Part shown: in pieces, positions 3,662 to 30,418 of the stretch | Layout of the letters: each line of letters starts with the position of its first letter | Position numbering within the stretch: the first letter of the stretch is position 1 | From: Methanobacteriales archaeon HGW-Methanobacteriales-1 | Lineage (GTDB): Archaea; Methanobacteriota; Methanobacteria; Methanobacteriales; Methanobacteriaceae | Assembly (NCBI GenBank): GCA_002839705.1 | Contig: PGYO01000005.1 | Coordinates: forward strand, 124,001 to 188,000 | DNA length: 64,000 nucleotides | Direction of reading: 5' to 3' | Notes under the pieces: generated by a model | Told to the model about the DNA's origin: nothing | Database searches by the model: none | What the model saw: only the letters and a program-made list of their open reading frames with translations | Program-made: the position numbers and the translations under genes

Positions 3662-3973
3662 ATGAAGGCGAGGAAATTAAAAATCTACGTTAAAACGGAT
3701 AAATTTTCAATTCCCATTCCTGCATTACGATTTTCAACATTTAGATGGATTACTAAAACCATAATTCGACTTTGTCCTCCTAAAATTAGAAAAAACTGGG
3801 CACCAGCATTAACTGAAAATAAATTAGGCGAATCAATATTAAAAAATCTAACCTGTGAAGATATTGATCAGATTATCGACCAGTTAGAACTGGAAGAGCC
3901 ATTTGAAATGGTGGATGTCCAGGCCGAGGATGAGAAAGATGGTAAAGTCGTGGTGAAAATCTACACAATTTGA
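3662..3973 (+). CDS. Conserved hypothetical protein, first gene of the DUF2089/SHOCT triad
   Basis: Soluble protein of 103 residues and unknown function. It shares a plan with the C-terminal 80 residues of the third gene of this triad (4386-4769): a starting strand (KLKIYVKT here, WLKVRVKT there), a P-rich strand, a helix with basic residues, a D-I/L-D-x-I-I helix (CEDIDQIID / QIDLDEIIE), an acidic turn with VDV, and a closing V-x-V-x strand. I read this as one paralogous domain. GGAGATT precedes ATG 3662. The stop is 12 bases from the next start, so the three genes are probably one operon. Confidence 0.75.
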   Translation: MKARKLKIYVKTDKFSIPIPALRFSTFRWITKTIIRLCPPKIRKNWAPALTENKLGESILKNLTCEDIDQIIDQLELEEPFEMVDVQAEDEKDGKVVVKIYTI

Positions 3974-3985
3974 TTGGTGATTGTT

Positions 3986-4345
3986 ATGAAACGTGAAGTA
4001 CCAGGAAACTGTCCTATATGTGATGGTGAAATTAAAGTTACTGAAATACAGTGCAAAAAATGCAAAAGCATTATAAAAGGTGAATTCGACCTTTGCAAGT
4101 TTTGCAGGTTAACTAACGAGCAAAAATACTTTACAGAAGTATTTATTAAAAACCGGGGAAACATTAAGGAAATTGAAAAAGAATTAGGGATATCATACCC
4201 CACGGTAAGGAATAAACTGGATGAAGTGATTTCTGTTTTTGGCCACAAAGTCGAAAAACTGGCTATTGATAAAAAAGATATCCTGGAAAGGCTTAAGAAG
4301 GGAGAAATTAGTAAAGATGATGCTTTAAAATTACTCAGTGAGTAA
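3986..4345 (+). CDS. DUF2089 family zinc-ribbon/HTH protein
   Basis: Probable DNA-binding regulator of 119 residues. The N-terminus has paired cysteines (CPIC, then CKKC) and a third pair LCKFC near residue 37, as expected for a zinc ribbon. A helix-turn-helix stretch follows with GNIKEIEKELGISYPTVRNKLD (about residues 53-75 in two helices). The C-terminus has a SHOCT-like segment, ILERLKKGEISKDDALKLL. The start is ATG 3986, because GGTGAT lies 4 bases upstream; an in-frame TTG at 3974 is less likely. It is sandwiched between two proteins that share a domain, which suggests regulator and ligand or partner roles. That is inference. Confidence 0.85.
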   Translation: MKREVPGNCPICDGEIKVTEIQCKKCKSIIKGEFDLCKFCRLTNEQKYFTEVFIKNRGNIKEIEKELGISYPTVRNKLDEVISVFGHKVEKLAIDKKDILERLKKGEISKDDALKLLSE

Positions 4346-4385
4346 AAATGCTTTAAAAAATGTCAAAATTTTGGAGTGAATTAAA

Positions 4386-4769
4386 ATGTCAAAAAATGTT
4401 TCAGAAGAAAGAATGCAAATTTTAGAAATGGTGGAAGAAGGAAAAATCAATACAAAAGATGCCATGGAACTCCTTGATGCTTTAGAAAGAAACCTGGAAT
4501 CAATTAAACCCAAAACAGAGGCCAAATGGCTAAAGGTTCGAGTTAAAACCATGGATGACAATCCTAAGGTAAATGTGAACATACCCCTGTCCCTGGTTGA
4601 TGTGGGATTAAAACTGGCCAAGAAATTTGACCCTAAGCTGGAAGAATCGGGCCTGGATCAAATCGACCTGGATGAAATAATTGAGGCAGTTAAAAATGGA
4701 GCAGAAGGAAAAATCGTGGATGTGGAAGATGAAGAAAATCAAACCAAGGTCCAAGTATTTGTGGAATAG
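4386..4769 (+). CDS. SHOCT-like domain protein, third gene of the triad
   Basis: Protein of 127 residues. The N-terminal 35 residues form a SHOCT-like helical hairpin (ILEMVEEGKINTKDAMELLDALE), closely resembling the tail of the neighbouring DUF2089 protein. The remaining 85 residues match the plan of the first gene of the triad (see 3662). So the first gene is effectively this protein without its SHOCT-like segment. GGAGTGA precedes ATG 4386. It ends convergent with the TauE gene. Function unknown. In bacteria similar pairings accompany membrane-stress or anti-sigma-like systems; I cannot say whether that applies here. Confidence 0.8.
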   Translation: MSKNVSEERMQILEMVEEGKINTKDAMELLDALERNLESIKPKTEAKWLKVRVKTMDDNPKVNVNIPLSLVDVGLKLAKKFDPKLEESGLDQIDLDEIIEAVKNGAEGKIVDVEDEENQTKVQVFVE

Positions 4770-5637: not shown

Positions 5638-5911
5638 TTTTCAACCTGAGGAAATCCTAGTTTCTTAGATTATATGCTCCCCTAGAACTATATCTTACTT
5701 TCTATTTCTGCATAACTGTTTTTAATCATATTTTTTAAAACTATCATGTCTCATTTGTCCTGAGATTTAAACGCGGTTATTAAAAAGAAATGAAAATTAA
5801 ATTATGCTTTAAAATTAATGAATATCTTGAAGCAGAATTCATTTTTATATTTTCAATTACATTTTGATTTTAAGGAATTTTATAAATTATTTAATTAAAA
5901 TAAGAATATAA

Positions 5912-6403
5912 TTATAACTTTAAAGCAAAGTCTTCTGCATTTTTAAGGTCTTTTACATTAGGCCTACCCTTATTCATTCCCCCAAAGAACCTAAGAAAAC
6001 TATTGGTGTTGAATCCTTTGCATTGAAATTCATCAATGATTATGTAACCTTTCGATTCCAGTTTTTCCCTAAGGGCACTGTGATCTTTGATTTTTTTGGA
6101 TTCTCCGGTTATTCCAGCAGTTGAAAAAAGGAATACTTTCTTATCCATGACTTGGGGTAGTTCATCAGCAAGCTTAAGCAGAGATTCGTCGTGTTTTGCA
6201 CTGTAAATACCTGAACCAAACCCTACTAGATCATAATCTTTAAGTATTTCCGGTTCAATTTCTTGTGGCGTTTTTATTTCTGCATCAAGAACTTTAGCAA
6301 AGACTTTAGCTATTTTTTCCGTATTATGGTGATGATACGAATACAAAACCAAGAGAGATTTATTAGACTTTAATTCCGTGTGCATTTCCTCATTATTTTC
6401 CAT
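5912..6403 (-). CDS. Flavodoxin family protein (second of a tandem pair)
   Basis: Small flavoprotein of 163 residues, probably an FMN-binding electron carrier in the cytoplasm. It starts like the family, with strand LLVLYSYHHHNTEKIA; the HHHNTEK stretch takes the place of the usual Thr/Ser-rich phosphate loop. Later come DLVGFGSGIY and KKVFLFSTAG, typical of the flavodoxin fold. The start is ATG 6403, because GGAGG lies 7 bases upstream; earlier in-frame starts would run into the previous gene. It is a close paralogue of the gene upstream and is last in an MDR reductase-flavodoxin-flavodoxin operon. Confidence 0.87.
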   Translation of the reverse strand: MENNEEMHTELKSNKSLLVLYSYHHHNTEKIAKVFAKVLDAEIKTPQEIEPEILKDYDLVGFGSGIYSAKHDESLLKLADELPQVMDKKVFLFSTAGITGESKKIKDHSALREKLESKGYIIIDEFQCKGFNTNSFLRFFGGMNKGRPNVKDLKNAEDFALKL

Positions 6404-9879: not shown

Positions 9880-9940
9880 CTGATAGGCTATTCTATATAG
9901 ATAGCAAATTTCGACTTCTTTTTTTATGAATTATTTAAAA
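9880..9940 (+). repeat. Third, degenerate copy of the intergenic element found around the ClC gene
   Basis: CTGATAGGCTATTCTATATAG followed by ATAGCAAAT and a T-rich stretch ending TGAATTATTT (read in parts) matches the core of the copies at 11125 and 12926 in order and spacing. It lies in the gap between the winged-helix gene and the AI-2E family gene. The hairpin/T-run seen after the other two copies is not found here. Confidence 0.6.
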
Positions 9941-9949
9941 AATAAAATA

Positions 9950-10966
9950 TTAGGAAGGATTCTCCTCCTTCTCAACTTCCTCTTTTTTTTCTTCTTCATC
10001 ATCGGTGGTCATGAGCAATGCTAACCAGCGGGTTTCCTTAAAGTTCTCCAGATACTTTATAACCACTATAGTAAGAGGTACGGCCAGAAACATTCCAATT
10101 AATCCCATAAGCCAACCCCAGACGAATAAGGAGATAAATACTACGTAAACGGATATTTGAAGTCCTTTACCTGTGAGTTTAGGGAATACAAAACTTTCGG
10201 CAATGGTATTAATTATCACGAATAGTATGGTGATGCCCAGCGCACCCCATATTCCATATTTGGCCCAGGCAATAAGAATAGGGGGTATGGCTGCTAGCAT
10301 AATTCCGATATAGGGGATAAATCCCAAGACAAAGGTTAATATTCCCCAAAGAACGGCAAAGTTTATATCAAAGAGTAAAAAAACACCGAAAAAACCCACA
10401 GCGGCAAATAAGTTCACTTTTATCCGAATTACAAAGTATTCAATAAAGTCCCCAATTAGGTCAAAAGTGTTCTTTAAGGAGGGACTATCTTTACCAAACC
10501 CTTTTATAAGCCTTGATTTTACATAAGGTAGCTCATAAATCAGGAATATAACTGCAAATAGTAAAAAGAACCCTATCTCTATAATACCTGCTATATCTTC
10601 AAATGGTATATTGGAGAGGAGGAATTGGATGATTTGATTGGCATAAGTGGCCAGGAGAGAATTAGGATCGATGGTTATGGTAGGTGCTGCTGCTGCCAAC
10701 TGACTTAAACTATCCACAAGAATTGCCAATAGGCCTGCTCCTAGTACAAAGGTGGCCACTATGGTTATAAGAATAGATATGTTGTAAGAAAATCCTTTCT
10801 TTTTAAGCCACATTAAAAAAGGATAAATGAGTATGGCAATGAAAATAGAAATGAGCACCGGCCCCAGAATTGGAGCAATGTACTTCATTCCTATAAAAGC
10901 TAATATAATCACGGCTATGATAATAATTTGATTTAGAAAAGGTGGTATTTTATATTCTTCCGTCAT
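9950..10966 (-). CDS. AI-2E family transporter (UPF0118)
   Basis: Membrane protein of 338 residues with the family layout: two N-terminal helices, a short helical pair, a periplasmic-side segment, then four or more C-terminal helices. Family-like stretches include GILTFVLGFIPYIGIMLAAIPPI and the C-terminal GLIGMFLAVPLTIVV (each read in parts). The last 15 residues are strongly acidic and lysine-rich. Family members have been linked to autoinducer-2 export or Na+/Li+-proton exchange; the substrate here is unknown. AGGAGGAA precedes ATG 10966. Confidence 0.86.
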   Translation of the reverse strand: MTEEYKIPPFLNQIIIIAVIILAFIGMKYIAPILGPVLISIFIAILIYPFLMWLKKKGFSYNISILITIVATFVLGAGLLAILVDSLSQLAAAAPTITIDPNSLLATYANQIIQFLLSNIPFEDIAGIIEIGFFLLFAVIFLIYELPYVKSRLIKGFGKDSPSLKNTFDLIGDFIEYFVIRIKVNLFAAVGFFGVFLLFDINFAVLWGILTFVLGFIPYIGIMLAAIPPILIAWAKYGIWGALGITILFVIINTIAESFVFPKLTGKGLQISVYVVFISLFVWGWLMGLIGMFLAVPLTIVVIKYLENFKETRWLALLMTTDDEEEKKEEVEKEENPS

Positions 10967-11038
10967 ATTCTTCCTCCTATTTTTTTAAATTCACTATTTA
11001 ATTAAATTATATTATCGAAGTCTCAGATATATTTATTC

Positions 11039-11200
11039 TAAAGCTTTTCTAAGGAATGTTTTTGAAAATCAGTAAATTTAGAATATTATTGATGAAAATA
11101 GGATTATTCCTTCCGAATACTATTTTCTGATAGGTCGCTCTATATAGTGATAGCAAAAATATTGAATTCTTTTTCTGAATTATTTTTAAAGGTTGATTTC
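11039..11200 (+). repeat. Intergenic element copy 1, upstream of ClC, with promoter-like core
   Basis: Bases 11043-11095 (TTTTCTAAGGAATGTTTTTG, then AAATTTAGAAT) match 12847-12890. The core at 11125-11195 (TTTCTGATAGGTCGCTCTAT, ATAGTGATAGCAAAAATATTG, read in parts) matches 12926-12995 almost base for base. TCTATATA in the core could be a TATA box for transcription to the right. No open reading frame lies between the core and the hairpin at 11270. Confidence 0.75.
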
Positions 11201-11269
11201 AACTGTATAATTTTTATAAATTTAACTAAGTTCTAAGAATTACTTCGAAATTAATATACAATTTATTAT

Positions 11270-11310
11270 AAGGCCCGATCATTTCTCCAGGAATGGTTTG
11301 GGCCTTTTTT
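11270..11310 (+). terminator. Hairpin with T-run ending intergenic element copy 1
   Basis: The outer stem AAGGCCC pairs with GGGCCTT, and the inner stem CATTTC pairs with GGAATG around the loop TCCA. A T6 run follows. It lies before the ClC gene. The nearest gene to its left points the other way, so no known plus-strand gene needs it. This suggests that a short untranslated RNA ends here. The second copy at 13118 keeps the fold with partly different bases. Confidence 0.6.
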
Positions 11311-11495
11311 ATTTATATTTTGATGAAAATGACCTTTTTATTTATTTTAAAGCAATAATGAGCATTAGAATAAAATATTCTCATTTTATATTATTTATAT
11401 CATAAAAAACAAAATATTAATTATCATGGGGGGTGCTCAGAGCAGCCCATAGCAATTTTAACTATGATGTAGAGTTAAGGGGGAGGATTTTTCTA

Positions 11496-12755
11496 ATGTC
11501 AGATGATTTTAATCTGAAATCAAAAATTTACTGGAAACGTATGGGCTGGGGACTGTTTTTAGGTATGATAAGTGCTATAAGTGTATTTATCTTTATTTTG
11601 CTCATGGATATGGGTCAAGGCATTTTTTTCCCGAACCTGGGCCAGAATTGGGCATTATTCTCTGGTCCGTGGTGGATGATAATAGTCATGACTGGGGCGG
11701 GATTAATGGTGGGTTTAATTCATCGTTATACTTCGGCCCAACAGTTGGATGCATTTAAAGCTATGGATGATGGATATTTAGACCCAAAACCAGTACCTTC
11801 GTCTCTTCTGGCATCACTGATATCATTGATTGCTGGTTTTAGTCTAGGTCCAGAAGTTCCGTCTGGGTTTTTAGCAGCTGGACTGGGAACCTGGATATCC
11901 AAAAAGCGTAATATGGATCCGAAAACCACTCGTATAAATGTCATTAGTGGTATTTCAGGTGCTTATGCTGGCTTATTTTCATCCCCTCTGGTCATGATTT
12001 TGATGCTACTGGAAACTGACCATAAACAAAATGTTATATATTATGGAACACTTTTTATCGCTGGAATGGCAGCAGTAATTGGTTTTGCTGTTTTTTATTT
12101 ATTTAATGACCTTAACTATTCATCTTTACTGGGTATTCTATCACCTCCTGCTTATCATCTTCAATTATGGCATCTGGGAGCGGGTGTTCTGATGGGTATT
12201 ATAGCAGTACCCATAGCTCTGGTTTTTGTCATATTTAACAAGGTTCTTCAACGTGCAGTGGAGCCATTAAACAGTAAACCCATATTGCGCAGCACTTTAG
12301 GGGGTTTCCTCCTGGGCGTGCTGGCAGTGATTATACCTTCCACCATTGGACTGGGAACTACGGAAATGTCTATTGTAACTTCTCAAGCGGCAGAAATTGG
12401 AATAGTTCTCCTTTTAGTATTCGCACTGGCAAAATTACTGGCCTTGAGTGGGGCCCTGAATTTTGGATTCATTGGAGGACCTATATTTCCTCTTTTATTT
12501 GTGGGTGCTTGCATCGGTTCACTTATCACCGTACTTTTCCCTCAAATTCCACAGGGTTTAGCCTGGGGATGTATGATTGTAGCTGTACCTGCTGCAGTGG
12601 TACCTATTCCTATTGCATTGGGTGCCATTGGTATAGTCATCATTGGATTATCACCCACCGACACTCTTCCGGTTTTCATTTCAGCCCTGGTGGCCTATGC
12701 TATAACTCACGGTCTTCTGGGCGCTGGTCAGGAAAATCTATCCAAAGAAGTTTGA
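11496..12755 (+). CDS. ClC-family chloride channel/transporter-like protein
   Basis: Membrane protein of 419 residues with about ten hydrophobic segments. Two ClC signatures are visible: GFSLGPEVPSG near residue 115, where the GPE glutamate matches the gating glutamate of GREGP in characterised ClC proteins, and GFIGGPIFPLL near residue 325, matching the G-x-F-x-P anion-binding stretch. The first signature, GSGIP, is not clear. There is no CBS domain. I start at ATG 11496, which has GGGAGGA 8 bases upstream; the ATG at 11433 has none. It could be a Cl-/H+ exchanger or a fluoride/chloride channel. Related intergenic elements lie on both sides. Confidence 0.85.
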   Translation: MSDDFNLKSKIYWKRMGWGLFLGMISAISVFIFILLMDMGQGIFFPNLGQNWALFSGPWWMIIVMTGAGLMVGLIHRYTSAQQLDAFKAMDDGYLDPKPVPSSLLASLISLIAGFSLGPEVPSGFLAAGLGTWISKKRNMDPKTTRINVISGISGAYAGLFSSPLVMILMLLETDHKQNVIYYGTLFIAGMAAVIGFAVFYLFNDLNYSSLLGILSPPAYHLQLWHLGAGVLMGIIAVPIALVFVIFNKVLQRAVEPLNSKPILRSTLGGFLLGVLAVIIPSTIGLGTTEMSIVTSQAAEIGIVLLLVFALAKLLALSGALNFGFIGGPIFPLLFVGACIGSLITVLFPQIPQGLAWGCMIVAVPAAVVPIPIALGAIGIVIIGLSPTDTLPVFISALVAYAITHGLLGAGQENLSKEV

Positions 12756-12839
12756 GTTGGGGAAATAATTTCCCATTAATTATTTTATTATTTGCATCTC
12801 AAATTGAAAAATTTATCAAAATAATTTTTATTGTAATTT

Positions 12840-12995
12840 TAAAGGATTTTCTAAGGAATGTTTTAAAAAATAAGCAAATTTAGAATTAAATATATTAAAA
12901 TAAGCGCTAATATTCAAGATTGTACTTTCTGATAGGTCGCTCTATATAAGTGATAACAAAAATATTGAACTTGTTTTTTTTCTGATTATTTTTCG
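12840..12995 (+). repeat. Intergenic element copy 2, downstream of ClC
   Basis: Matches copy 1 (11039-11200): TTTTCTAAGGAATGTTTT, then AAATTTAGAAT, then the core TTTCTGATAGGTCGCTCTAT, ATAAGTGATAACAAAAATATTG (read in parts). The spacing between the left part and the core is nearly the same in both copies. The two copies are about 1.8 kb apart, in the same direction, with the ClC gene between them. Confidence 0.75.
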
Positions 12996-13117
12996 AGTTA
13001 TTATTTTTAAAATATTTTTCCTAGAATTATCAATTTTAATTCATGAATTATTAAATCAATTTTATTTAATTTTCTATAAAATTTTAATAAGAGATTATTT
13101 TAATTTTATAGCAACCT

Positions 13118-13159
13118 AAGGCTCGGCCATTTTTTTCAGAAATGGTTAGGGCCTTTTTT
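13118..13159 (+). terminator. Hairpin with T-run ending intergenic element copy 2
   Basis: The outer stem AAGGCTC pairs with GGGCCTT with one T-G wobble, and the inner stem CCATTT pairs with AAATGG; a T-run follows. Compared with the hairpin at 11270, several stem bases differ while pairing is kept. It lies 360 bases after the ClC stop, too far to look like a simple terminator for that gene. Confidence 0.55.
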
Positions 13160-30016: not shown

Positions 30017-30418
30017 TTAAATATCTTTTTCTTCTAAAAAGCTTTCAAACCAGTTAGATAACTTTAAAGCCTTTATTTTGTCTAAATTTGCCCATTTAAA
30101 ATCAGTGTGTTCGTCGCTGATTTTTAAATCTCCAGAATTCACTTCTACAGTCATTATTACATGCACGGAGTGTATGTGGGGAAGATCCTGCTGAGCTATA
30201 CCCACTGCCCGATTCAGGGAGATATCTAAATTGGTTTCTTCTTTAATCTCTCTTATCATGGCATCATCAAAAGATTCTTCGGGTTCTACCTTACCTCCTG
30301 GAAGTTCCCAACATTGGGGATTACTTCGAGAATCAGGGGCACGTTTTAAAATAAGAATATTTGCATCTGAATCTTTTATTATGGCTCTAACTACCAGTCC
30401 AAATGGTTTATCTGTCAT
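30017..30418 (-). CDS. Nudix hydrolase
   Basis: Protein of 133 residues with a complete Nudix box, GGKVEPEESFDDAMIREIKEETNLDI (read in parts, about residues 41-66), including the REIKEET metal-binding helix. The sequence before it, LILKRAPDSRSNPQCWELPGG, resembles MutT-type dNTP or ADP-sugar hydrolases. AAGGAG precedes ATG 30418. The substrate is not evident. Monocistronic. Confidence 0.9.
   Translation of the reverse strand: MTDKPFGLVVRAIIKDSDANILILKRAPDSRSNPQCWELPGGKVEPEESFDDAMIREIKEETNLDISLNRAVGIAQQDLPHIHSVHVIMTVEVNSGDLKISDEHTDFKWANLDKIKALKLSNWFESFLEEKDI

Follow-up and report, generated by a model that had tools for sequence, protein, structure and literature searches.

We identified a unit of approximately 140 bp, repeated around a ClC-type channel gene of the source genome (designated G000; assembly of 2.57 Mb in 27 contigs), and tentatively regard it as a recombination or insertion site that would originate from the 3′ end of the orphan gene orf171 and bound exchangeable gene blocks. 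The probability of this reading was estimated at approximately 0.45. It was favoured because the flanks of the copies were exchanged, the copies shared a common left edge, and like cores were accompanied by unlike left parts. The source of the site would comprise the last ~30 codons of orf171, the stop codon and the 26–40 bp core just past it. Exchange at the core would add or remove gene blocks in the island downstream of hisF-orf171, each event would leave the right-hand boundary of a block marked by a direct copy of the unit, and exchange between copies would keep the cores alike. Recombination between copies was supported but not proved by the sequence comparisons. By analogy with integration at gene 3′ ends, we infer that the exchange would be site-specific and mediated by a recombinase that either acts in trans or was later lost.

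Copies of the unit in the source genome

The 20-base core CTGATAGGTCGCTCTATATA was found exactly at positions 11127 and 12929 of the window (the whole 64,000-nucleotide stretch that was analysed), with no third site at up to three mismatches and a chance expectation of 0.00 matches in shuffled sequences. At the same threshold (three or fewer mismatches in 20), the genome contained three sites (G000:C5:117589, 135128 and 136930), which shared one strand of a single contig, and none on the other strand. The best-anchored copy was that at the 3′ end of orf171 (approximately G000:C5:117588), 6.4 kb to the left of the window. The near-identical cores recognised in the preliminary description were confirmed at 11127–11164 and 12929–12967. 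All three of its copies, two strong and one diverged, were genuine, but the total exceeded three owing to the copy at orf171, which also contradicted the statement that none of the copies contains an open frame.

Copy delta consisted of a left part (11036–11126, plus strand), which could be aligned gap-free with the final ~30 codons of orf171 and included a left box at ~11036–11066, and the exact core CTGATAGGTCGCTCTATATAGTGATAGCAAAAATATTG (11127–11164, plus strand). The in-register identity of this left part to the orf171 3′ ends (z 4.7–6.7) exceeded that at all 250 shifts, with the left edge at −91. Copy epsilon was composed of a left part at 12838–12928 (plus strand; z 4.5–6.2 against orf171 3′ ends) and a core at 12929–12967 (plus strand) carrying one extra A, and the earlier claim that the two good copies have a left part in common was borne out. 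Copy gamma (CTGATAGGCTATTCTATATAGATAGCAAATTTCG, 9880–9912, plus strand) had diverged and was recovered with the pattern TTCTGATAGGNNNYTCTATATA, which admits it and gave exactly three matches, with 0.00 expected. It had an orthologue in G002 (unit model, E = 3.9e-7) and a partial one in G001, and we consider it a weak but real copy. A possible relic, a left box lacking a core (5866–5915, plus strand), was recognised by eye rather than by statistics; it adjoined the 3′ end of a flavodoxin gene, where G001 and G002 carried a full copy. The gene for an AI-2E family transporter (9950–10966, minus strand; PF01594, E 2.9e-35) separated gamma from delta, and the ClC-type channel gene (11496–12755, plus strand; PF00654, E 3.2e-35) separated delta from epsilon. 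Positions 3662–4769 of the window contained a DUF2089-containing trio followed by a TauE-like gene; in G006 and G137, the trio stood to the left of a copy.

Anatomy of the unit and its relation to orf171

Two segments made up the unit, a left part of 91 bp whose left edge was shared among copies and a core of 26–40 bp, with a fixed, indel-free spacing between them. The left parts aligned without gaps to the 3′ coding end of orf171 (its last ~30 codons). With the orf171 3′ end of G000 (gene_G000) as the reference, the in-register identity reached 42–57 of 90 positions in 12 non-coding copies (z 3.6–7.5), the second G003 copy, which had no orf171-like left part, being excluded. In the 11 of these copies that were tested by shifting, the real register outperformed all 250 shifted positions (z 3.7 for G006_b). 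Homology started at −91 from the core: the mean in-register identity to orf171 was 0.59 between −100 and −80, compared with 0.26–0.28 in the three blocks further left, and most columns from −91 on reached 0.85–1.00. In G136, the similarity may extend slightly to the left of −91. When copies at unrelated positions were compared, identity was 0.55–0.69 for the left part, 0.75 for the first 20 core bases and 0.32–0.35 outside the unit. The right flanks beyond approximately +50 were at chance level (0.35–0.38). Across positions and genera, the core was 76–100% identical in most comparisons, and the left part fell to ~0.5.

The two good copies had been described as ending in a related hairpin. Terminator-like hairpins with a T run were indeed present on the plus strand at 11270–11309 (z −4.2; 142 bp after the delta core) and 13118–13158 (z −3.3), but they formed a separate feature outside the conserved core unit. 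The three best matches of the hairpin in the genome were located 130–190 bp downstream of the three good G000 cores (E 0.006 or better). The hairpin was common to the related copies in G001, G002 and G006 and, judged by eye, absent from those in G137, G136 and G003.

The orf171 gene (G000:C5:117093–117608; L019:2594–3109) encodes a 171-aa orphan protein near hisF, and its core segment encodes LIGRSI and the stop. It directly followed hisF in G003, G136 and G138 and was found within a few kb of hisF in G000 and G137 (HisF was assigned from its sequence, not by domain search). High similarity to orf171 was detected in 8 of the 152 searched genomes of the phylum. The protein had no match in Pfam, NCBIfam or PDB, and the structure model built from three sequences was unusable (pLDDT 42). 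A distant relative in G032, a member of PHROG 30657, matched ORF6 of psiM2 and psiM100 (E 3e-8 to 5e-9), and the hhalign profile comparison of orf171 with the G032/psiM ORF6 group gave a probability of 65% (E 6e-5). From these profile and sequence matches, orf171 may be of viral origin. The neighbour of the G032 relative encodes a TFIIB-type zinc ribbon, detected at E 8e-7, slightly below the curated cut-off, and the C-terminal part of orf171 may be TFB-like. At L065:960–1905 of G032, the zinc-ribbon gene and the psiM ORF6 relative look like a split, virus-type TFB. A second partial orf171 was found in G006 (L066; G006:C209:3–266), 97% identical to the G000 protein, compared with 90% for the main G006 copy, possibly reflecting a strain mixture in the metagenome-assembled genome (MAG).

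Distribution and exchange of flanking gene blocks

The family scan, which used a sequence-only model of the unit, gave strong matches in G000, G001, G002, G003, G006, G136, G137 and G138, i.e., in all eight orf171 genomes, which represent six GTDB genus groups (g1, g2, g4, g15, g16 and g17). The copies were near orf171 and in one orientation, either on the same contig or, in the fragmented assemblies of G002 and G006, on syntenic contigs. Elsewhere in the family, no convincing copy was detected, and the remaining matches were weak (E 6e-4 or worse). The named records carrying the unit were Methanobacteriaceae MAGs, one Euryarchaeota-titled MAG and the uncultured Methanobrevibacter RUG14110. 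The core was kept in G136 and G138, and no second copy was found there. The core search proposed in the preliminary description yielded copies outside the window and in seven further genomes. Its suggestion of a conserved function or a recent duplication stood as regards conservation across GTDB genera; because of that conservation, the copies are not the leftover of one local duplication. Searches of phage, plasmid and IMG/VR records with the core or orf171 gave chance-level DNA matches only at the thresholds used, and a looser pattern gave 23 candidate contigs among viral sequences. The literature search returned no description of the element.

Gene order at the copies differed between genomes. 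In G000, orf171 was followed by a core and PhnB. In G001 and G002, orf171 was followed by three genes (acetoacetate decarboxylase-like, SDR and membrane protein), the right half of a core (TGATATCAAAAATATTGACTTC) and PhnB. In G006, the same three genes preceded a half core (GTATAGTGATATAAAATATTGAAC), a block with an Fe-S protein and the DUF2089-containing trio, and then PhnB after a full core. This G006 order was assembled from two contigs: the first breaks off within the trio, the second opens with the final codons of the last trio gene, and the join was deduced from this fit. Across this deduced join, the G006 block was enclosed by direct repeats, the half core and the full core. In G137, the blocks were followed by cores. 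The trio-side left flank met three different right flanks: PhnB in G006, the AI-2E 3′ end in G137 and flavodoxin in G001 and G002, where the left part at flavodoxin was of the same type as in the trio-core copies. The ClC gene was absent from G001 and G002, where a ClC 3′ remnant lay between the two kept copies. Since ClC was lost in these genomes and both flanking copies persisted, the element is not tied to the ClC gene, around which it had first been described. Near position 11417 of L047 (G001:C12:239417), a second half core preceded a flavodoxin gene that is duplicated; to the left of this half core, a block with TetR and glycosyltransferase genes had been inserted.

The orf171 end stood beside the three-gene block with no core at that junction in G001, G002 and G006. 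Core-free blocks in the island also included the genes between hisF and orf171 (G000), the ABC operon and the EthD region. As several island blocks adjoin no core, the locus is a general hot spot. The block cargo looked chromosomal. Among the open reading frames read within the array, none was recognised as an integrase, transposase or viral gene, and there were no tyrosine recombinase matches on the array contigs. The sole strong tyrosine recombinase match common to all eight genomes was a XerA-like protein of ~340 aa encoded on another contig (E near 1e-47). This lack of a recombinase linked to the element is the chief weakness of the favoured reading.

Similarity of the cores

Left-part identity was 0.72 at the same position in other genomes versus 0.57 between different positions of one genome, a pattern that old copies should show. 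The cores did not follow position. The 26-nt cores of delta and epsilon in G000 were the same, the extra A aside (1.00), with left parts 67% identical (0.67); the core value of 0.08 for G001_d, an offset artefact of one inserted base, was left out. At delta, TTTATATTG, TATCGA and AACTT were shared by G001, G002 and G006, and G000 had the canonical core. The orf171 identity of G000 was 95–96% to G001 and G002 and 88% to G006, the outgroup; by gene identity, G000 was nested within this group. The G000-specific changes at delta clustered from approximately −40 to +55, with none from −100 to −40. The G000 delta core is best read as having been converted by another copy, which the sequences support but do not prove; this reading draws on one locus, on a few sites and on pairwise identities instead of a full tree. 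Transfer of the region between lineages could also account for the pattern. In G003, both copies carried a core variant peculiar to this genome, with 39 identical nt; they were 174 bp apart (L067, near 10300 and 10478).

Alternative explanations

The strongest competing explanation, which we consider less likely than the favoured one, is a conserved cis element at the orf171 3′ end acting in RNA processing, termination or DNA–protein binding. The unit would then have been copied together with gene ends, with the core under selection and recombination incidental. Consistent with this, most copies came after the 3′ end of a plus-strand gene, the three G000 copies preceded a terminator-like hairpin, and the left part–core spacing was constant. 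The core was also conserved in G136 and G138 as the sole copy found, for which selection for another function would be the simpler account. In contrast, delta and gamma did not follow a plus-strand gene, the core of delta had decayed in G001, G002 and G006 with its left part kept, and the flanks were exchanged at the core. Neither RNA structure nor covariation was observed. The covariation check on aligned copies suggested earlier gave compensatory changes in 0 of 6 pairs, the folding energy of the unit was within the range of shuffled sequences on both strands (z −0.6 to +0.7), and the Rfam scan returned nothing near the gathering score. An RNA role is unlikely, as folding was no better than that of shuffles and compensatory changes were lacking. 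A promoter or operator role is likewise unlikely, because the copies sit between convergent, divergent and co-directional genes. This leaves a recombination or insertion site and a conserved 3′-end element as the main candidates.

Somewhat less probable still are non-functional leftovers, produced by repeated local duplication of the orf171 3′ end and then ordinary homologous recombination in a hot spot of gene turnover. The confinement of all copies to one locus, the homology covering the whole unit beyond the core and the many island block changes that ignore the copies would fit such a history. However, it does not readily explain the high identity of the core next to left parts at ~0.5 and right flanks at chance level, or the same left edge in copies at different positions.

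We give rather little credence to a cassette-like gene-capture array that uses a site originating from a host gene's 3′ end and a recombinase outside the known integron types, either XerA supplied in trans or an enzyme that escaped recognition. Integron cassette arrays, among them archaeal integrons and CALINs without IntI (PMC9668308), similarly consist of blocks that each end in a direct site copy in one orientation and are gained or lost, and arrays lacking the integrase exist. Unlike integrons, the element had no RYYYAAC/GTTRRRY pair in any copy and no folded site, its blocks contained multiple genes on either strand, and its site came from a gene 3′ end. No IntI-type integrase was found near the array with the general PF00589 model. 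The XerA-like recombinase of all eight genomes recalls the XerA/dif system and Xer-dependent modules; however, dif arms (11-bp inverted, 6–8 bp spacer) sought in five copies gave 6–7 of 11 pairs, as in shuffles, and the genome-wide count of a dif-like pattern (37 matches versus 24–26 for the control) was uninformative.

It is improbable that the core is a binding site of the orf171 protein, possibly TFB-like, with the gene and its sites forming a small regulon. No full copy was found outside the eight orf171 genomes, CTATATAG resembles a TATA box, and the zinc-ribbon neighbour of the G032 relative would agree with this idea. On the other hand, the position of the copies relative to promoters varied, DNA binding by orf171 is not backed by any fold or family, and the co-occurrence is equally expected if the unit derives from the gene. 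A diversity-generating retroelement, which would likewise pair a repeat at a gene 3′ end with non-coding copies, was rejected because the differences were not adenine-specific and no reverse transcriptase was seen among the open reading frames.

Relation to known attachment sites and significance

The favoured recombination or insertion site recalls the attachment sites used by archaeal tyrosine recombinases at gene 3′ ends (PMC8371274), in that direct repeats bound accessory DNA and the repeat matches a gene 3′ end, here that of orf171. Archaeal att identity blocks can exceed 100 bp (102 and 243 bp in Thermococcales; PMC8371274). In contrast to such sites, the blocks bounded by the element contained no integrase or recognised viral or plasmid genes, its non-coding copies were far diverged except in the core, and the orf171-side junction often had no core. 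The element was not classed as an integrative attachment site, as the defining integrase is missing. The psiM2 and psiM100 viruses, linked to orf171 through the distant relationship of their ORF6, differed in that the core matched at best 16 of 25 bases in either virus and the element showed no resemblance to the attL core region of psiM100. The annotated attachment cores of psiM100 are at L153:1514–1530 and 30295–30311.

Should the core prove to be an active recombination site, it would mark an island that gains and loses redox, transporter and detoxification genes. It would also provide a defined site for genetics in organisms for which few tools exist, and it would mean that the end of an archaeal gene can come to serve as the recurring boundary of a modular array lacking an integrase of its own.
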